Assembly (NCBI GenBank): GCA_029258925.1
Contig: JAPDJV010000022.1
Location: 1-32,113, forward strand
Reading direction: 5' to 3'
Source: Thermoproteota archaeon
GTDB taxonomy: Archaea > Thermoproteota > Thermoprotei_A > EX4484-217-1 > JAPDJV01
Length of the DNA: 32,113 nt
Part shown: positions 81-31,939 of the stretch, piece by piece
How the letters are laid out: every line of letters begins with the position of its first letter
How positions within the stretch are numbered: the first letter of the stretch is position 1
Notes under the pieces: model-generated
Told to the model about the DNA's origin: nothing
The model's input: only the letters and a program-made list of their open reading frames with translations
The model's database searches: none
Program-made: the position numbers and the translations under genes

Positions 81-1370
81 TCACAATAAAACAAAAACAC
101 ATAGAGTGATACGGTTCGAGGAAACGGCTCCAGGAGCTTTGGGAAGTATGCTTGCATCACTCACGAACAATCCACTTATCTCAGTCTCATGGTCTATGTT
201 TACGACTCTCCCTATTCCAGCCGTTCCACCCGGGTGCCCGGCTCGCACCCTGGTTACGTAAAAAGTGTTGGGGTCAGCACCGGTTTTGGAAAGTATTTTC
301 TTAGAGATCTCAACACCCATATCCAGTTTTCTCCGATCTCTCCGTAACAGGCTTATGTATTACACCGTTGACATCTACTCTTCCAGAATCATCGTCAGTA
401 ATCTTAGTCATTAATCCAAGGGTTCTATGCCTCCTAAACGCACGTATCTTCTTGAATACTGGTAGATACATGAACATGTCTAGGGGAGTATCTAGGATAG
501 GCGACAGTATGAAACCGTGGTTCTCATGGAATTCGTCTATCAGCGTTGCCATACCGATCTCATCTTTCATATGTCCCTTCTTAATCATGCCGTAAGTGTT
601 AACCAGTAGGTCTGCGAAGAAATTGCTTCCAGCATTGTTTATCCCTGATCTCTGGAGAATTATCGGAGTACCTATCCCTCCAGCTGCTAACACTATGCTA
701 GAGGCATTGATCGTGAAGGCTCTGGAAGAACCGTGCCCGCGTACACCCTTCACTTCACCATTTGAGTGGAGAACTTCATCTACGAGGCCTCGGTGACAAG
801 CCTCGCTCCAGCTTTAACAGCTTCCCCAATAAATCTTTGAGCAGACCATTTAGCTCCATAACGACACCCCAAGACACAGCTCCCACAGCTCCTACACTTC
901 GAGGGATCTATGAACTTAGGCATATATTTCACATTATATCCGCACTCCCTTGAAGCATCCATTAGGATCCTAGCTCGCTCACCTATCAGGCTTTCAGGTA
1001 ATGATATAACACCGAGCTCTCTTTCAGCCTCTGCAAACTCTTCTTCCAAGCCGATCCCCAAACTCCTCAACTCCTCTTGAAGAGCTCTGACACCGTTGGC
1101 AAACGTAACGATAGAGGTTCCTCCAACCATGAATGCCCTTAAAATCTCAACTCCCTCAACAGATCTCTCTCCTGGACTGAGATTCCTCAAAAACTTTGAG
1201 AAGCTTATGGAACCACTGTAGAACCCTAAAGCCCCTCTCTCACCCCCAAGCCTATGATACCTTCCCTTCTCCAAAATTACTACTTCAACGCCTCGTGTTG
1301 CAAGCTCTTTAGCAACAGTTGCACCCCCAGCTCCCGAACCAACAATTAAAACTTTGTCCATAAAATTCAC
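81..1370 (-). pseudogene. GMC-type FAD-dependent oxidoreductase, broken by frameshifts
   Basis: Three consecutive reading frames on the minus strand spell one protein of the glucose-methanol-choline/FAD oxidoreductase family. The first part (780-1370) has the N-terminal dinucleotide fold VLIVGSGAGGATVAKELATR, a glycine-rich loop MVGGTSIV and a cysteine cluster CRSCGSCVLGCRYGAK. The second (310-753) has LAAGGIGTPIILQRSG. The third (81-320) has the GMC C-terminal signature GLFVSDASILPKAPGA. One frame change lies near 780-795, where a TAG interrupts LVTEAS before the other frame continues as VDEVLHSNGE. A second lies near 335-345. After APGA the expected C-terminal helix is absent and the frame ends in unrelated residues. 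The start at 1370 precedes the FAD-binding strand directly. It is probably a dead gene; sequencing errors could explain one shift but hardly the abnormal C terminus as well. Confidence 0.82.
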
Positions 1371-13418: not shown

Positions 13419-13485
13419 ATCCTAGGAACAATTATTGCGAAAAACATATAGAATTTCCCACGCTTAAGATTACGTGGTTTTCGTA

Positions 13486-13917
13486 ATGGGGTTCTACGAG
13501 GAATTCGCCCGTAGATATCTGGAGGAGGCACTAAAGGATATTAAGCGAGCAAGTAAAGGATACGAGGAGAAGGATTTTCCTGAATGCGTATTTCATGCTC
13601 AACAAGCTGTGGAGAAAGCAGTCAAGGCTATGATAGAGGCTCGCAGAGAATACGTATATAATCATGGTCCTAGACTGGCCTCTCTCTTCATTAGGATCTT
13701 CGAGGATGAGTGGAGACCGGAGTTTGAGGAAGTAGTCGATATACTTGGTTGGTTTACGGAGTATTATACGCGATCCAGGTATCCCTTCCTACTTAGAGGA
13801 GCCATAGTCTCGCCGAGCGAATACATAGGTGAAGACACGGCTGTAAAGGCTATGGGTAAAGCTCGTAGGGTGGTGGAGATTGCGAGAACATATCTTAGAG
13901 AGAGAGGAGTTCTATAA
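13486..13917 (+). CDS. HEPN-domain protein, toxin-type
   Basis: A 143-residue HEPN protein: YLEEALKDIKRASKGYEEKD, then FPECVFHAQQAVEKAVKAMI is the typical first pair of helices (A-Q-Q-A-V-E-K-A-x-K-A). After EYVYNHGPRLASLF comes a C-terminal pair of helices with GWFTEYYTRSRYPF. It lacks the R-x4-H motif of HepT, but the family of HEPN proteins encoded with nucleotidyltransferases is clear. The ATG at 13486 is preferred over the 13474 codon since the protein-like sequence begins there. It overlaps the downstream nucleotidyltransferase by 38 bases, so the two are coupled. Confidence 0.87.
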   Translation: MGFYEEFARRYLEEALKDIKRASKGYEEKDFPECVFHAQQAVEKAVKAMIEARREYVYNHGPRLASLFIRIFEDEWRPEFEEVVDILGWFTEYYTRSRYPFLLRGAIVSPSEYIGEDTAVKAMGKARRVVEIARTYLRERGVL

Positions 13918-14365
13918 GTTGCTCCTTGACGTTGTGAAAGATCTGTTAGGCCGAGATTTGCTAAGCGTCATAGTGTTTGGTAGCACCGTGTATATGGGTG
14001 GAGGGAGAGATGTGGATGTGCTCGTAGTAGTCGAAGACGATATTGGTATGAGGGAGAAGAGGGAAGTGGAGTATAGCATATGGAGAAGACTATGTAGGAA
14101 GCATAGAGTTTGCGACGTAGATCTCCACGTGCTCTCATTCAGAGATTTCATATTAAACCTGGAGGTAGCCTCATTCTTATCGGGCTTGGCTCTAGGCTAC
14201 GTAGTAATATTCGATGCCATAGGCGTGGAGAAGTATATTCTTGAATTCTTAAACAGGTTATCGAGGGAGAAATATATTCTACACAATAAGTATGGGTCCT
14301 GGAATTTAGCATTCTTCGCTAAAGTCACGCTAGCTAGGAGAAGAAAGCATAGCAGCCTCAAATAA
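13880..14365 (+). CDS. Minimal nucleotidyltransferase, partner of HEPN
   Basis: A 161-residue protein of the pol-beta-type minimal nucleotidyltransferases. Active-site motif SVIVFGSTVYMGGGRDVDVL has G34-S35 and D44/D46, with the third acid in CDVDLHVL (D79/D81). The first codon is a TTG at 13880 inside the HEPN gene; a TTG at 13919, next to the HEPN stop, is an alternative giving a shorter N terminus. The C-terminal half is hydrophobic and helical (EVASFLSGLALGYVVIFDAI). It forms a HEPN-MNT toxin-antitoxin pair with the preceding gene. Confidence 0.85.
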   Translation: MREHILEREEFYKLLLDVVKDLLGRDLLSVIVFGSTVYMGGGRDVDVLVVVEDDIGMREKREVEYSIWRRLCRKHRVCDVDLHVLSFRDFILNLEVASFLSGLALGYVVIFDAIGVEKYILEFLNRLSREKYILHNKYGSWNLAFFAKVTLARRRKHSSLK

Positions 14366-23156: not shown

Positions 23157-23543
23157 TTAATTGGATTGTTTTAAACACAGTTTCCTATTGACAAATTCTA
23201 GAGTTTTACGTGTTTTCTCTATGGCCTCTCTGACCTCTTCTTCATCTGGTTCATCCTCTACGGGATAACGAACACTAGCTGCTCTCGGATGTAATTCATG
23301 TATCTCCAGTTCGTAGAGTTGCTCGAAGCTGGGATCCATCTCCTTACACTCCTCAATCAGTATTGCTATATTATGTGTCTTCTTTACTGGCTTGCCATGT
23401 TTTATGAGGAATGCCTTCAGAGCCTTCTCAACGGCCTGCTGCGCATGGAATAAAGCGTAATCATAGATACCCTCGTCTAGCAAGACCTCAGCCGCTCTTA
23501 GATCCCTCAATGCTTTACGAAGCCAACGACCATAATCACTCAA
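23157..23543 (-). CDS. HEPN-domain protein, toxin-type
   Basis: A 128-residue HEPN protein: WLRKALRDLRAAEVLLDEGI, YDYALFHAQQAVEKALKAFL, then GKPVKKTHNIAILIEECKEM, then the conserved HPRAASVRYP before the last helix. This is a canonical archaeal HEPN of the kind paired with nucleotidyltransferases. It begins with ATGA overlap on the nucleotidyltransferase gene, which precedes it here. Predicted RNase or nucleotide-binding toxin. Confidence 0.92.
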   Translation of the reverse strand: MSDYGRWLRKALRDLRAAEVLLDEGIYDYALFHAQQAVEKALKAFLIKHGKPVKKTHNIAILIEECKEMDPSFEQLYELEIHELHPRAASVRYPVEDEPDEEEVREAIEKTRKTLEFVNRKLCLKQSN

Positions 23544-23941
23544 ATAACTATACCCTCCTGCACAGCATAGTAAGTGATATCACCTACATCACTCCTATAC
23601 CTCTCGAAGTACTTCCTATCAACGACAACTACATCCACATCTATACCCTGCTTCGCAAGTCTAGCAACTATAGTGCCAGCAAAGCGTACGCGATACTTTT
23701 TATCAAGCTTACACCCAGTAACAACCAGTACATCCCAGTCGCTATCCCCACGACAGTCCCCCCGAGCCCGAGAACCGAAGAGAATAACCCTATATATTTC
23801 CACACCATACTCTCTAGCCGTCTTAGAAATAACAGACCTTATAACATCTAAACTCCTAGCATCCCCAACAGCATCAATAGCATCCCCAAGCATCCTAACA
23901 TCCTCATCATATCTATAAGCACCCAACTCTGATAAACCCAT
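23540..23941 (-). CDS. Minimal nucleotidyltransferase, partner of HEPN
   Basis: A 133-residue minimal nucleotidyltransferase. Motif VILFGSRARGDCRGDSDWDV holds G56-S57 and metal ligands D68 and D70; the third acid is in GIDVDVVVVD (D101/D103). It is complete and likely active. The first about 15 residues come from sequence shared with the end of the preceding PaREP1 gene, so the ATG at M17 (MLGDAIDA) may be the real start. With the HEPN gene it forms a toxin-antitoxin pair, in the order antitoxin then toxin, opposite to 13486-14365. Confidence 0.9.
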   Translation of the reverse strand: MGLSELGAYRYDEDVRMLGDAIDAVGDARSLDVIRSVISKTAREYGVEIYRVILFGSRARGDCRGDSDWDVLVVTGCKLDKKYRVRFAGTIVARLAKQGIDVDVVVVDRKYFERYRSDVGDITYYAVQEGIVI

Positions 23942-24945: not shown

Positions 24946-25227
24946 CTAGAAATCCATCAATGCCTCTATAAACTCTCTCAAGCTTTTTACTCTCTGCGAT
25001 GCTTTGACTGGGTCAATAATCCCTGCAATATTCTTCGCCGCCTCATAGCTCTTAACATACCTACGTCCCCCGCTCCTCATCATGTATTCGTCAAGAATCT
25101 TAGCGGGATCCTCAACGCCTTCAGGATCCCCAACACACACATGTATCCCAAGCTCTCTACTCAAAGCCTCATAATCCCCCAATATCCACGCCTCTATAGC
25201 CCTCCTAACAACCAGTATACTGGACAT
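24946..25227 (-). CDS. Small helical partner of the AAA ATPase
   Basis: A 93-residue protein with no family that I recognise: MSSILVVRRAIEAWILGDYE, ALSRELGIHVCVGDPEGVED, then KILDEYMMRSGGRRYVKSYE, AAKNIAGIIDPVKASQRVKS. It starts 13 bases after the ATPase stop and must be cotranscribed. In other genomes AAA_21 ATPases of this kind are often followed by a small nuclease-like gene (DUF4276 TOPRIM). This one has no TOPRIM acids and may be a truncated or different subunit. Confidence 0.55.
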   Translation of the reverse strand: MSSILVVRRAIEAWILGDYEALSRELGIHVCVGDPEGVEDPAKILDEYMMRSGGRRYVKSYEAAKNIAGIIDPVKASQRVKSLREFIEALMDF

Positions 25228-25240
25228 ACTGTTTCACTCC

Positions 25241-26359
25241 TCACGGGTTACCTCCGAAAAAACCCGAATACCATGCCTCCCCAAGCGTGCCACCCTCCTC
25301 AAGAAGCCTCTTAACCCTCTCTAACTCCTTGTGATCCGTAAGCCTCAACACGACGGTTTCAACACCACGCCTATCAACAGCATAAACCTCGTCAACCCTA
25401 CAATGATCCAACAGGTACGGCGAGTGAGTCGTAATAATCGTCTGACAAGAAGCCTTCCTGGCAAGATCAACAATAGCCTCCAGGAGGTAGGGGTGAACAC
25501 AGTTCTCAGGCTCCTCAAACCCCACAACACTAGAACCACCATACAGTGAAACTATAAATGCAAGAAGCCTCAAGGTACCATCAGATATCCCTGCAGGTCC
25601 AACAGGCTTCCTCAAACCCTTCTCACGAACCAGCACGAACACGTCCTCACCCTCAATATGAGGCACCACCTCCTCTACGCAGGGAACCATAGACCTCAAA
25701 ACACCCTCAACATTTATGTACCTCCTCCTATCCTCAAGAAACAAGTGAAGCAAAACCCTCGCAAGATTTTCCCCATAATAACCCAGAACAGGAGGATCCC
25801 TAACCCTCGAAGCCTCTCTTATATGGGGTGGGAGGAAAGAGTAAACCCTAACAGACTTAAGCATGTCAGCCAAAACCCTTATCTCATTAATAACATCAGG
25901 AGGCAACTTGCTCAAACAACTAGGAGGAATAACACTATCGAAGTATGTAAAGTGATCCTGAACACTCTTAGTGGCCTTCTTCCCACCTTTAGCAAAATAC
26001 CAGCACTCACCGGTCTCTCCATCATATTCTAAAACCTTAGTACCATTCAATTCGACTCGCTCCAAGTACCCCTCACGGTGAAGCCTAAGAGTGTAGCAGA
26101 CTTCCTTATCATCAATTGACAAGTTAAACTCTACACACACTTCAACACTCTCATCAAAATTGTAAGCCAACTCCTTAAAACTTCTAAAACCCATAGACTC
26201 CGTGGATTTTCCATGGACAAAATCGGAGACAAACCTAAAAACCTTAACAATATTACTCTTACCACTAGCATTAGGCCCCACAAACACGTTCAACTTACCC
26301 AACTTCAAATCAACATTCTTTAAACTAAGAAAATTCCTAACCCTCAACACTCTAAACAT
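25241..26359 (-). CDS. AAA_21 / OLD-type ATPase
   Basis: A 372-residue SMC-like ATPase from the ATG at 26359 (the frame opens five codons earlier). N terminus FRVLRVRNFLSLKNVDLKLG, Walker A FVGPNASGKSNIVKV, signature region VGPAGISDGTLRLLAFIVSL, Walker B SVVGFEEPENCVHPYLLEAI and switch region TIITTHSPYLLDHCRVDEVY. These are typical of the overcoming-lysogenization-defect/RecF-like ATPases found in defence loci. No TOPRIM domain follows in the same protein; its length and ending match ATPase-only members. The small downstream gene is its likely partner. Confidence 0.88.
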   Translation of the reverse strand: MFRVLRVRNFLSLKNVDLKLGKLNVFVGPNASGKSNIVKVFRFVSDFVHGKSTESMGFRSFKELAYNFDESVEVCVEFNLSIDDKEVCYTLRLHREGYLERVELNGTKVLEYDGETGECWYFAKGGKKATKSVQDHFTYFDSVIPPSCLSKLPPDVINEIRVLADMLKSVRVYSFLPPHIREASRVRDPPVLGYYGENLARVLLHLFLEDRRRYINVEGVLRSMVPCVEEVVPHIEGEDVFVLVREKGLRKPVGPAGISDGTLRLLAFIVSLYGGSSVVGFEEPENCVHPYLLEAIVDLARKASCQTIITTHSPYLLDHCRVDEVYAVDRRGVETVVLRLTDHKELERVKRLLEEGGTLGEAWYSGFFGGNP

Positions 26360-26790
26360 GATATTCCACACCACAACACCTTAATCACAAACACTACACA
26401 ACTAAACCATACAGCTCCAACTCTATCTTATGAAATACACAATTTTAACAATTCGCTCGAACCAAAATCCCCACTCGAACACTCCTCAATAAACCTCTCC
26501 ACGCCCAAGCCACTCAAAAAATAACCAGATACCATACGCTCAGTTCAGAGCCTCCAATAAACCCTTAATAGGAGTGCAAGGGCTGAAATGTTCCTCGCCT
26601 TATCCCAGGAGCCAAGCCTAAATATCGTGCTGTGCTAGGAGGGAGGTCTGGAGACAGGTAGCATCTTGAGCAACCTAGCTTTCTCCAACAATACTAACTC
26701 CGTAAATTTTATATGGGGAATATGTGTAAAGGTTATGCACCGAGCAGTAGCCATTTAAGAATTATAGAATTTATAGAACCTCTATTACAT
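26360..26790. other. Gap with a short reading frame
   Basis: No firm gene. On the minus strand near 26450-26560 an ATG opens a 35-codon frame MVSGYFLSGLGVERFIEECS, SGDFGSSELLKLCIS, which looks protein-like but matches nothing I know. Plus-strand frames near 26590-26760 contain stops. The two ATPase operons are separated by this stretch, which should hold the promoter of the 26359 gene: AATTGTGTATTTC-type AT-rich sequence lies near 26425-26445. Confidence 0.3.
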
Positions 26791-27369
26791 CTAGGGTCTC
26801 ACTTCAATACCAAGTTCCTTAAGTGCTCTGATAAGCTCCCGAAACCAAGGATCTCCCTTAAGATAGTCCAGACTCCTTTTTCCCCTTACCCAGTACTCGA
26901 GTGCACGTGGCACTGTCAATACGTGTATTAGTAGCGTAATATGTGCGACGTATGTGACACTTATTACATAATAGAAGCTTCCCCTACGCGTAAACTTTAC
27001 TTCCGGTTTATATGAGTGGAACCTCCTAGGATTGCTTACAATGTTACTTATCTTCTCAAATATCTTCTTCGACAAGTTGTCTGGTGTGTCGTGGTCGCAG
27101 TCCACCAACGCGAATACTTCTTGCCTCCTCCTCATACTCCTCATTTTAGACACTATTATGGGCACATTCTTCATTAACCTCTCCTTACCACCCTCTACAA
27201 TTACCACCATGCTCGCTGAGATCCCCTTCTCATACATTCTTCTAATGATTTCATCCTTCTCGCCGTAGCTAGCGGAAGAAATTTTCTCAACCACTATACT
27301 CTTAAGAAAGTTATAGTCATTTTTACCTTCACATAAGAAAAGTATTGGTCTACGGCCCACGTAGATCAC
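26791..27369 (-). CDS. Stand-alone TOPRIM-domain protein (OLD/PARIS-type partner)
   Basis: A 192-residue protein with a TOPRIM fold. PILFLCEGKNDYNFLKSIVV carries the glutamate E14, and EVFALVDCDHDTPDNLSKKI carries D90-x-D92 with a further D94. This is the metal centre of OLD nucleases and related RNases. The C-terminal half (FTRRGSFYYVISVTYVAHIT to LKELGIEVRP) is unrecognised. The gene overlaps the end of the upstream ATPase gene by 20 bases, so the two form a split ATPase/TOPRIM module, similar in layout to the defence pair AriA/AriB (PARIS) and to OLD. The start is at 27369, within the ATPase gene. Confidence 0.78.
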   Translation of the reverse strand: MIYVGRRPILFLCEGKNDYNFLKSIVVEKISSASYGEKDEIIRRMYEKGISASMVVIVEGGKERLMKNVPIIVSKMRSMRRRQEVFALVDCDHDTPDNLSKKIFEKISNIVSNPRRFHSYKPEVKFTRRGSFYYVISVTYVAHITLLIHVLTVPRALEYWVRGKRSLDYLKGDPWFRELIRALKELGIEVRP

Positions 27370-28600
27370 CCTTCAACTCTTCAAGTTCCTCAATAGCTTC
27401 CTCCCCACTCAGAATCTCATAGTCTATTTCACCGTTTGGAAGCCTATACATTCTAATAACGTTAATGTTATTGAGTACATTAAGCTCTCTCGCATACTTG
27501 AAGAGGTATTCCAAAAATTCAAGACTATGAGTAGCCATAACATACTGCACATTATAAGTATTAACCACTTTAAGCAATTCCTTGCAGAACTGATTGAGGA
27601 AACCTGGATGCATATGAATCTCAGGCTCCTCCACAACATTAACATTAACACCTAGAATAGCCGGAGTAAGGAGCTCTAGAAGAGCCAGAAATCCGTCGCC
27701 GACAGACGCTAATGGCACGATCTCACGCCCATCACTATAGTTAAAGATCACCATACCATTCCTATAATCGTAGAAATAAGGTACCATACTCCTAAGCCTA
27801 TCTATTAAATCAATGAGTTTATCAACAGGTAGCTTCTCTACGATATCTCTACCTGGTCTACGTCTCAGCAATTCAGCACTAACTAAAATAGGCGATTTAT
27901 ACTTCTTAAGCTCAACGAATTCTTTATCCTCTTCTTCAAACAAGGAGGCGGACTCAGGTTTAAATACCATGTGTACTTTTATCGGGTCATTATCAATAAG
28001 AGTTATTGAGATAAACCCTAGTTCATCAATAATCTTCCGTTGCTCCTGCCTCTTAATGAGATCCTCTTGTTCCTCATATCTCTTCAAGCGATTTAACATC
28101 ATTTCCAGTTCTCTCTCATAGGCTTTTCTTTGCTCAGTGCCCTCCGGTAAAAGCTCTATCCTACGCCTTGAACGTGTTATGTCAATCTTTAGGCCTTGTA
28201 ATATTCTCTTAAACCTTTTTTCAACTACCTCACTTATAGCAGTGTCAATGGCCTCTCGTAGCAGTTGGTTCGTACCTAGCTTCTCAAAGCCTTCCCTACC
28301 TGTTGCTAAATATAGAGACAACACTTCATTATTAGTGGTATGACCCTTTACCACAGCTATGTCACTATGCACTCTCTTAAGGTAACTGTAGCCTCCTCTG
28401 CCCACCGCTAACTTTAAAACATTATTACCAAAGCAATCCTTGTAGTCATTATACGATGAGAGGAGGAGGGCTATAGCCTCTAATACGCTGGTCTTTCCAG
28501 TATTATTCCGCCCCACAATAATGTTCACTCCCTTCAATTCCAGCTTCATGCTGGCTATGGCTCTAAAGTCCTTAATTTCAACCTCCTTCAACAAATACAA
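27350..28600 (-). CDS. OLD-like AAA ATPase, partner of the TOPRIM protein
   Basis: A 416-residue ATPase. KEVEIKDFRAIASMKLELKG, Walker A NIIVGRNNTGKTSVLEAIAL, a charged coiled coil at about 130-190 (KRFKRILQGLKIDITRSRRR, EQRKAYERELEMMLNRLKRY), signature region LASVGDGFLALLELLTPAIL, Walker B NVNVVEEPEIHMHPGFLNQF and switch QYVMATHSLEFLEYLFKYAR. The start is a TTG at 28600; no ATG or GTG fits. It lacks a fused nuclease and is followed by a separate TOPRIM gene in 20-base overlap. It probably senses phage or DNA and licenses the nuclease. Confidence 0.88.
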   Translation of the reverse strand: MYLLKEVEIKDFRAIASMKLELKGVNIIVGRNNTGKTSVLEAIALLLSSYNDYKDCFGNNVLKLAVGRGGYSYLKRVHSDIAVVKGHTTNNEVLSLYLATGREGFEKLGTNQLLREAIDTAISEVVEKRFKRILQGLKIDITRSRRRIELLPEGTEQRKAYERELEMMLNRLKRYEEQEDLIKRQEQRKIIDELGFISITLIDNDPIKVHMVFKPESASLFEEEDKEFVELKKYKSPILVSAELLRRRPGRDIVEKLPVDKLIDLIDRLRSMVPYFYDYRNGMVIFNYSDGREIVPLASVGDGFLALLELLTPAILGVNVNVVEEPEIHMHPGFLNQFCKELLKVVNTYNVQYVMATHSLEFLEYLFKYARELNVLNNINVIRMYRLPNGEIDYEILSGEEAIEELEELKGDLRGP

Positions 28601-29652: not shown

Positions 29653-29964
29653 ATGATAGTGGGGGTTACTGTAGTGCGCACCTCGTCTACGACTATTAGG
29701 GTTTCTGAGAAGACGAAGAACATGTTGACCAAGGTGCTCATCAGGTTGGAGAACGAGCTGGGTAAGCGTTTAGATTACGATGATGTTATTAGGATTCTTA
29801 TTGAGAGAAGTGGTTTTAGGAAACCTGGACTGCTACTTAGGCTTAAGGAAATGAGCGTACCCGAGGAAGTCGTGGAGAAAGCCCGCAAGCTATTAGAGGA
29901 GGAGTCTAGGCTTGAAGAAGAAGTTTTTAAGAGGAGATATTGTTCTTCGATACAAGCATTCTAG
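29653..29964 (+). CDS. vapB: VapB-type antitoxin
   Basis: A 103-residue antitoxin. TSSTTIRVSEKTKNMLTKVL followed by GKRLDYDDVIRILIERSGF is a ribbon-helix-helix-type N-terminal domain with an insertion between strand and second helix. The C-terminal acidic helix VEKARKLLEEESRLEEEVFK should embrace the toxin. The start is an ATG at 29653, though the GTG at 29674 (VRTSSTTIRV) is possible. It overlaps the PIN gene by 25 bases. Confidence 0.83.
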   Translation: MIVGVTVVRTSSTTIRVSEKTKNMLTKVLIRLENELGKRLDYDDVIRILIERSGFRKPGLLLRLKEMSVPEEVVEKARKLLEEESRLEEEVFKRRYCSSIQAF

Positions 29965-30350
29965 TTGAAATCCTTCTAGCAACAGAAAATGGTAAACAAC
30001 TTATAGATGAAATAGTTAACGAAAACATCACACCCTACACAACAACCCTAAACATTACAGAAACACTCTACATACTATGCCGACTACTAGGACTAGAAGA
30101 AGCCAAGAAAAGAATAAAGCTACTAGTAAACTCCGGATACCTTGAAACAGTGAGCTCAGACAATTTAAGCCTAGAAGCAGCAGAATGTAAATGCCTATTC
30201 CCAATAAGCATAGTAGACTGCCACACACTAGCACTATCAAGAAAACAGGGAAAACCAGCACTATTCTACAAACCTGAAAAAGAATTTAAACAAATAATAA
30301 GCAAGCTCGAGACATGGACAAAAAACAAAATATACTTCATAACCCAATAA
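29940..30350 (+). CDS. vapC: VapC-type PIN-domain ribonuclease toxin
   Basis: A 136-residue PIN-domain protein starting with a TTG at 29940, five bases after a GAGGAG Shine-Dalgarno sequence. Acids: D4 in MFFDTSILVEILL, E41 in LNITETLYIL and D93 in ISIVDCHTLALS. The fourth position reads ALFYKPEKEFK, so a glutamate would stand where aspartate is usual; activity is probable but not certain. Translation overlaps the antitoxin end. Codon use is richer in AAA/ACA than in the left-hand pairs, suggesting separate acquisition. Confidence 0.88.
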   Translation: MFFDTSILVEILLATENGKQLIDEIVNENITPYTTTLNITETLYILCRLLGLEEAKKRIKLLVNSGYLETVSSDNLSLEAAECKCLFPISIVDCHTLALSRKQGKPALFYKPEKEFKQIISKLETWTKNKIYFITQ

Positions 30351-30928: not shown

Positions 30929-31757
30929 GAGGAACCAATAGTATTTAGCGAAAAAGCAGGAATCTTCGAAGGTCCAAAACTTAAATTCAAGAAGAAGTCT
31001 AGACCTGCGGATTTACACCACTATACGAAGTTCCTTAAGAAAAACACTCGAGAGCTGGGTGTTGCGAGGGAGATAAGTATTCCAGTAAATAAAAGAATAG
31101 CCATTGCATACCCAGAGAATTATATTACTGATAACGAAGCCAGACTATTCTATAAAGACCTAGCTAAGGCATCAAAAAAGTATTTAAAACATTATTGCCT
31201 CGAAACCCATTTCTATGGGGTTATAGAGACGACCCATCACCTATTGTACGTAACTATAGAAGGTTTAAAGATAATGTGTTAGCTACGGTGGTTATATTTA
31301 GATCTGTTGATGACGAACTTTACGAGTTCTACAAGAGGTTGTTCGAGGAGAAAGTCTCCCAAATGGTAACAATAAGACTTATAAGAATGAAGGAGCGATT
31401 ACCTAAGGAGGAACTACATAAATATAGAAATATTATTATGAATCTTATTTCAGGCCTTCTAGGAAAACTCAGTTTAAGACCTTGGTTACTAGATGATGAG
31501 CTTAAAGCTAAAGCATACATTGGAATAGATCTATTACCAGGAAGAGCAGCCGCGGTAACATTGATGGATACTTGGGGGAATTACATGGGTGAAGAATGGA
31601 TAACACTGCGGGATCAAAGATTAGCTCAGATGACATGTATAATACTTTATATCGATTAATTATCGGGAACCTAGAGACTTTAGAAGTAATTAATGGGCTC
31701 TCAATAGTATTTATGAAGGATGTGATATATCCCGAATTCTCCGAAGTTTTTAACTAG
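30929..31757 (+). pseudogene. Decayed Argonaute/PIWI-domain protein
   Basis: Three frames on the plus strand join into one PIWI-type protein: 30929-31195 EEPIVFSEKAGIFEGPKLKF, REISIPVNKRIAIAYPENYI, ARLFYKDLAKASKKYLKHY; 31195-31610 LPRNPFLWGYRDDPSPIVRN, ATVVIFRSVDDELYEFYKRL, MNLISGLLGKLSLRPWLLDD, AYIGIDLLPGRAAAVTLMDT, WGNYMGEEWITL; then 31611-31757 GSKISSDDMYNTLYRLIIGN, LSIVFMKDVIYPEFSEVFN. The 'GKLxxRPWLL ... YIGIDxxPGRAAAVTLMDxWGN' block is the start of a PIWI domain, with D of G-I-D in the place of the first catalytic acid. Two frame changes, no start codon and no C-terminal third indicate a dead, truncated copy. Confidence 0.68.
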
Positions 31758-31777
31758 GATAATATCCCGAATTCTCC
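31727..31777. repeat. 16-base direct repeat at the Argonaute/proteasome-like junction
   Basis: ATATCCCGAATTCTCC occurs at 31727-31742 and again at 31762-31777. The first copy lies at the end of the Argonaute relic, the second inside the end of the truncated proteasome-like frame. Such repeats mark recombination or a duplication made at an insertion. Confidence 0.7.
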
Positions 31778-31939
31778 AGCTATGGATAACGATACGTATT
31801 CTTCACTAGATTTGAACGCTATAGGGTGCATCTTCCTAACCCCGTAAGCCAGATACCCCACAGAGATTCTAGGGTCATAGGCACTCATGACAACCCTCCC
31901 ATCGCCCGTAAACCGCTTTAAAGCGATAACCAAAGTCAC
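31754..31939 (-). pseudogene. Truncated proteasome-like Ntn-hydrolase gene
   Basis: A 61-codon frame MTLVIALKRFTGDGRVVMSA, YDPRISVGYLAYGVRKMHPI, AFKSSEEYVSLSIAGEF. The pattern MTLVIALK-x-DGxVVxASDxR...YxxRKxxPI...YVxLxIAG is the N-terminal part of the proteasome-like proteins of Crenarchaeota, which are normally some 200 residues or more. Here it ends at the repeat junction after GILS. The expected S/T-x-D pair is mutated (SAYDPR). Cut off by rearrangement with the Argonaute relic. An AATTATAC-like TATA box near 31963-31975 suggests it may still be transcribed. Confidence 0.6.

Follow-up and report, generated by a model that had tools for sequence, protein, structure and literature searches.

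In the main texts of the reports on BPAN-type and ago-agaP/APAP systems, the partners of prokaryotic Argonautes (pAgos) range from nucleases and other effectors to phospholipase D proteins (PMC10620215, PMC11442185). In term searches, no protease or peptidase partner turned up in the main texts of four pAgo surveys and system papers (PMC6299218, PMC2743648, PMC11442185, PMC10620215), and a term search of the text of a 2026 survey of archaeal immunity found no mention of one either (PMC12988326). Here we describe the remnant of a pAgo gene in a member of the Thermoproteota, together with the unit formed by its intact relatives, in which the Argonaute gene meets, tail to tail, a gene for a predicted metallopeptidase.

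The window analysed is a whole contig (G000:C22) of 32,113 bp, from a host genome of 1.75 Mb in 56 contigs with an estimated completeness of 98.4%. On its plus strand, positions 30929–31745 are, on alignment, the relic of a long pAgo, corresponding to about residues 334–609 of 745, a stretch that takes in MID and the beginning of PIWI (Table 1). With two intact homologues as queries, tblastn against the window aligned residues 334–418, 417–567 and 567–609 in order (E = 3e-90 with P0001 and 1e-86 with P0002) over three consecutive plus-strand frames, the last of which covers 31611–31739. The start at 30929 is exact, homology opening at EEP of P0002. The initial annotation had assembled a PIWI-like protein from three adjoining frames, with breaks near 31190 and 31610, and these results bear it out, placing the breaks in an A run and a G run. 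The motif on which it had relied, GKLSLRPWLL...YIGIDLLPG, is present and contains the first catalytic Asp. Comparison of the frame-corrected protein with pAgo profiles, which had been proposed as a check, gave matches to the PADLOC profiles PprPIWI (E = 9e-12) and pAgo (7e-11), and the composite also matches the solved VbAgo (E = 3e-4). The Pfam Piwi profile detects the intact homologues (E = 6e-9 and 5e-11) and has no match in the genome or the relic fragment, because most of PIWI is gone. The search for intact homologues, likewise proposed, located them in two archaeal MAGs at 54–65% identity.

Table 1. Features of the relic and its 3' junction, with the nearest intact relatives and the Ago/partner overlaps of related loci.
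Feature	Position or locus	Strand	Basis or remark
Relic pAgo piece 1: linker and N-terminal part of MID, ~334–418 of P0002	30929..31189	+	tblastn 56–65% identity, frame 2
Relic pAgo piece 2: remaining MID with guide 5'-end motif Y..K..Q..K, and PIWI start	31174..31611	+	62–65% identity to P0002/P0001, frame 1
Relic pAgo piece 3: PIWI to just beyond third tetrad position; truncated after ~residue 609	31611..31745	+	51–53% identity, frame 3
First frame break, within A run	31174..31179	+	homology passes from frame 2 to frame 1
Second frame break, within G run	31610..31612	+	homology passes from frame 1 to frame 3
First catalytic Asp codon of PIWI (YIGID), retained	31528..31530	+	aligns with Asp that is Ala in VbAgo-DM
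Second retained catalytic Asp codon, third tetrad position	31719..31721	+	alignment to VbAgo/VbAgo-DM
16-bp direct repeat ATATCCCGAATTCTCC, copy 1, Ago side of junction	31727..31742	+	
16-bp direct repeat ATATCCCGAATTCTCC, copy 2, starting where convergent-gene homology ends	31762..31777	+	
N-terminal stub of convergent gene, 3' truncated at junction	31754..31939	-	homologous to first ~55 of 268 residues of L073:640-1446
P0002, 745 aa	L004		Desulfurococcales MAG JAMOPC010000081
P0001, 749 aa	L005		Thermoprotei MAG QMSP01000018
Ago/partner 3' overlap, 20 nt	L004, L005, L049 (G409)		
Ago/partner 3' overlap, 36 nt	L050 (G511), viral contigs L058, L059		
Ago/partner 3' overlap, 4 nt	L060, L062, L063		
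Ago/partner 3' overlap, 16 nt	L061, L064		

No single open reading frame spans the relic, which is divided among its three frames and truncated at both ends. The N-terminal half (N, L1, PAZ and L2; about 330 residues in intact relatives) is missing from it, and a whole-genome search found neither the N-terminal ~333 nor the C-terminal ~135 Ago residues anywhere, so that the absence of both termini, claimed earlier for the locus, is upheld across the genome. A genome search also found no gene for the HExxH partner that adjoins Ago in the nearest intact relatives. We consider it very probable that 30929–31745 is a non-functional remnant of a long pAgo belonging to a partnered family.

Catalytic positions were set by alignment to VbAgo and its double mutant VbAgo-DM, in which both are Ala. 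Equivalents of the MID guide 5'-end residues Y466, K470, Q479 and K514 are all present in the relic. A full DEDX tetrad is absent: the relic has D, S and D, the fourth position being missing, and its nearest intact relatives, P0001 and P0002, read D-S-D-D with the same Ser at the Glu-finger position. Because of this Ser, slicing was probably weak or missing already in the relic's clade. The tetrad differs by group: L050, L058 and L059 have DEDD, the relic's clade has DSDD, and the haloarchaeal Agos have lost it along with the Lys of the guide motif. The AlphaFold model of the full Ago was poor (pLDDT 46) and good in MID only; with it, Foldseek returned Argonaute or PIWI structures for all 50 among the matches listed.

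The intact relatives share an ordered unit, consisting of the pAgo gene, a convergent, 3'-overlapping gene for an HExxH metallopeptidase-like protein and, often, a small helical gene. The Ago and peptidase-like genes overlap tail to tail in 11 relatives, by 4–36 nt (Table 1), and the arrangement spans Thermoproteota, viral contigs and plasmids of Haloplanus, Halorientalis, Halosimplex, Halobacterium salinarum and Halorussus; in Natrinema (L067), an annotated IS5-family transposase gene lies between the two. The small third gene, on the partner's strand, is alignable in 8 loci, and plasmids L062 and L064 have an annotated gene of fitting size at its place. The five intact plasmid records list the products of all three genes as hypothetical proteins. 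Two other loci, L028 and L030, match PprPIWI well yet have no such partner. A UvrD helicase gene was observed near the unit in L060, L063 and L064, and a UvrD-like frame by eye in L050. Phage-like genes were seen by eye upstream of the DEDD-type Ago unit in L050 (341–7356) and L059 (2602–5903); these loci suggest that units of this type may be carried by archaeal viruses or proviruses.

The partner in L004 is 379 aa long with a HELGH motif, and that in L005 is cut by the contig end. HExxH, W..xW..E..xD and HP/HPP..xR motifs are kept in all 13 partner proteins, and a partner profile recovers the haloarchaeal proteins at E values of 7e-12 to 0.0035; the Halorussus partner, the weakest profile match, was assigned by position and motif. 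The partner has no credible match in Pfam, NCBIfam, PADLOC or PDB sequence searches, and PADLOC has no model matching either the peptidase-like or the small partner. With the AlphaFold model of the partner (pLDDT 75), Foldseek gave nothing significant, and the similarity to ZMPSTE24 (Z 5.5, rmsd 6.2 over 204 residues) is not distinctive. That the partner is a peptidase, for which HExxH and the conserved E..xD motif make an M48-like or other gluzincin type a candidate, is a prediction resting on its motifs.

The initial annotation had remarked on the patchy occurrence of Argonautes, and our counts agree: PprPIWI has a match at any level in 17 of 229 genomes of the class, with 11 of 122 among the good ones. 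The Thermoproteota copies that we found comprise three intact genes (G116, G424 and G511) and four separate wrecks, including that in the window. In G113, residues 319–343 are joined to 645–745, reaching the contig end; G409 retains residues 511–749 beside an intact partner; and in G355 only the last 30 codons survive, beside an intact partner and the small gene. The Ago family thus decays repeatedly, these three other genomes holding independent remnants. The decayed Ago of G113 (L033 8893–10107) lies directly downstream of a HEPN-like gene, identified by eye, in a toxin–antitoxin-like setting. Viral contigs scanned with a two-sequence Ago profile gave nothing, and a three-sequence profile recovered L058 and L059. 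The same kind of scan with the peptidase profile also gave nothing, though both contigs carry the partner, which marks it as insensitive; a phage search gave no match.

Several other genes of the window resemble defence or toxin–antitoxin components. A VapB-like/PIN toxin pair (29653–30350, plus strand) lies directly upstream of the relic. At 24946–26374 (minus strand), a HEC-01A-like AAA ATPase (PADLOC E = 3e-51) precedes a gene of 93 aa that aligns with just the C-terminal half of HEC-01B, probably a truncated second component. At 26791–28600 (minus strand), another AAA ATPase, PDC-M38A/AriA-like at E = 1e-26, overlaps a small gene weakly like TOPRIM/AbiLii proteins, and the two form a candidate two-gene defence unit. 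There are also two HEPN gene pairs, at 13474–14365 (plus strand) and 23157–23941 (minus strand); the HEPN partner is a Pfam-supported nucleotidyltransferase in the latter and has no Pfam match in the former. No Rfam or tRNA feature was found within the window.

How recently the gene broke was gauged by comparing 247 codons of the relic with those of two intact genes; in the tree, the relic groups with P0001 and P0002. Amino-acid identity of the relic to the intact genes is 0.607 and 0.628, and that of the intact pair is 0.607; lineage-specific amino-acid changes number 29 in the relic and 34 and 29 in the intact genes. NG86 dN/dS values, for which dS is near or beyond saturation, are 0.17 and 0.10 for the pairs that include the relic and 0.09 between the intact genes, and 55 of 58 family-invariant residues are retained. 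On these comparisons the breakage is recent, and selection acted on the gene until recently. The copy had been called decaying; a relic of a long pAgo it is, with the qualification that by the change counts its decay is recent and that its frameshifts may partly be draft errors.

That no relaxed selection is visible might also mean that the gene is broken on paper only, through errors of assembly or sequencing, in an organism that has an intact Ago unit. The assembly is a draft in 56 contigs, each frame break is the loss of a single base in a homopolymer, the relic ends ~370 bp from the contig end, and the window contains a second frameshifted gene, a GMC-type oxidoreductase (310–1370, minus strand) in two adjoining frames that match positions 23–148 and then 173–213 of the Pfam GMC_oxred_N profile. 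Because of the homopolymer losses and this other frameshifted gene, the frameshifts alone prove little: they may be errors of sequencing. For the truncations this is improbable, and it is these, together with the parts missing from a 98.4%-complete genome, that carry the case for a relic. Errors would have to account for the loss of both Ago termini and the partner genes, for the passage of both relic ends into unrelated sequence within one contig, and for an independent gene truncated at the identical junction, which makes an intact unit in the organism very unlikely; a misassembly confined to the 3' junction is possible, with the contig end so near. We set aside programmed frameshifting at the A run (A AAA AAG), since the relatives are unshifted there and the gene is truncated regardless. 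Purifying selection that is still detectable, and the intact guide-binding motif, would also fit a 154-codon open frame (31195–31659) retained for a function of its own, as a MID-like protein that binds guides or acts as a dominant negative. However, this frame opens inside MID, past the frame break, and cuts the Rossmann-like core, and the relatives have no conserved short form, their remnants retaining different parts; we find such a function extremely improbable and return to the reading of a non-functional remnant.

At the 3' end of that remnant, Ago homology ends near 31740, and the homology of the convergent stub stops at the same junction. The truncation of this adjoining gene, noted in the initial annotation, is real: its first 54 residues are 41% identical to a 268-aa protein of another archaeon (BLASTP), and its match in G168 has an E value of 5.8e-8. 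The proteasome-like character attributed to the stub is weakly suggested and unproven, the best solved match being proteasome beta-5 at E = 0.94. The same annotation proposed arrival by insertion. For a fragment brought in by a mobile element, one could cite the 16-bp direct repeat at the junction, the toxin–antitoxin and defence-like genes that abound in the neighbourhood and the presence of homologues in other families and another class. Yet the two repeat copies, with 19 bp between them, are both to one side of the relic and do not flank it, no IS, transposase, recombinase or flanking terminal duplication was recognised beside the relic, and each of the facing genes is cut short of its 3' end at the junction, as a deletion predicts. 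We regard arrival by insertion as quite unlikely. Because both convergent genes lack their 3' ends and a 16-bp stretch is repeated there, we infer that the junction is best read as one deletion with templated (duplicated) filler. Horizontal acquisition of the Ago gene is nevertheless probable, because its closest relatives belong to other families and to a different class; the junction is no evidence of such a transfer. A separate doubt concerns the intact unit, whose peptidase-like gene might have no functional tie to Ago and travel with it by chance or compactness. Convergent overlaps are frequent in compact genomes, and one genome retains the partner without Ago. Against this, order, orientation and overlap stay constant even in Ago pairs of 21–33% identity at the lowest, across Thermoproteota, haloarchaeal plasmids and viral contigs, and the partner is otherwise nearly absent, occurring in 5 of 398 genomes of the phylum and 1 of 229 of the class. 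An incidental neighbour is quite unlikely.

The history of the locus can be proposed on these grounds. The Ago C-terminus and the 3' part of the convergent neighbour were probably lost together in one deletion, which was repaired by end joining and left a short duplicated filler, and any partner genes lying between them would have gone with it; that the window copy once had partners is itself presumed from its relatives. The N-terminal half would have been lost separately, and the two frameshifts either came later or are sequence errors. In the intact unit, MID would hold a 5'-phosphorylated guide, pairing of the guide with invader nucleic acid would trigger the partner peptidase, and the triggered peptidase would cleave a protein of the cell or a regulator, stopping infection; slicing by Ago would be optional. 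The peptidase is the most likely conserved output because Ago catalysis varies while the partner keeps HExxH throughout, and we tentatively assign it the effector step, with a confidence that falls a little short of even. It is likewise plausible, if not quite probable, that the relic is what is left of an undescribed type of Argonaute defence unit that couples recognition by the guide to a metallopeptidase effector encoded tail to tail with Ago, and that plasmids and viruses have spread this unit across archaea, where it has repeatedly been lost. Taken alone, the relic shows that a defence Argonaute was lost recently from an archaeal lineage of which few members have been sampled, and the conserved unit of its intact relatives is more interesting than the wreck itself. 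Cultured haloarchaea, among them Halobacterium salinarum and Haloplanus, have this three-gene unit under the label of hypothetical proteins; laboratory strains that carry it include H. salinarum KBTZ03 and Haloplanus rubicundus CBA1113. Should the peptidase prove to be the effector, Argonaute immunity would be one more case of defence by protein cleavage, and one open to direct testing in culturable haloarchaea.

Among known systems, PprPIWI (PDLC02428) is the PADLOC profile that scores best, with the composite relic as well as with the tested intact relatives (1e-55 to 1e-119), although the relic spans only positions 325–513 of its 666. VbAgo, PliAgo, KmAgo and CpAgo are homologous along residues 119–730 of the family profile (VbAgo E = 1.6e-29) and share the catalytic Asp positions. 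The relic and both of its closest intact relatives differ from these solved pAgos by a Ser in the Glu-finger position, and N, PAZ and the final catalytic Asp are missing from the relic. The pPIWI of the Bathyarchaeia tailed provirus BATPV1, likened here by its description, resembles L058 and L059 as a pAgo carried by an archaeal virus, and a term search of the text of that report found no mention of a peptidase partner (PMC11705971). As their main texts describe them, BPAN and its relatives (PMC10620215) and the haloarchaeal ago-agaP/APAP systems (PMC11442185) likewise have a partner gene next to the pAgo, a defence context and a loss of catalysis in some branches, whereas the partner here is a convergent HExxH metallopeptidase-like gene. 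The relic is a degenerate long pAgo of a known kind, and what appears new, on the texts searched, is the partnered unit of its relatives.
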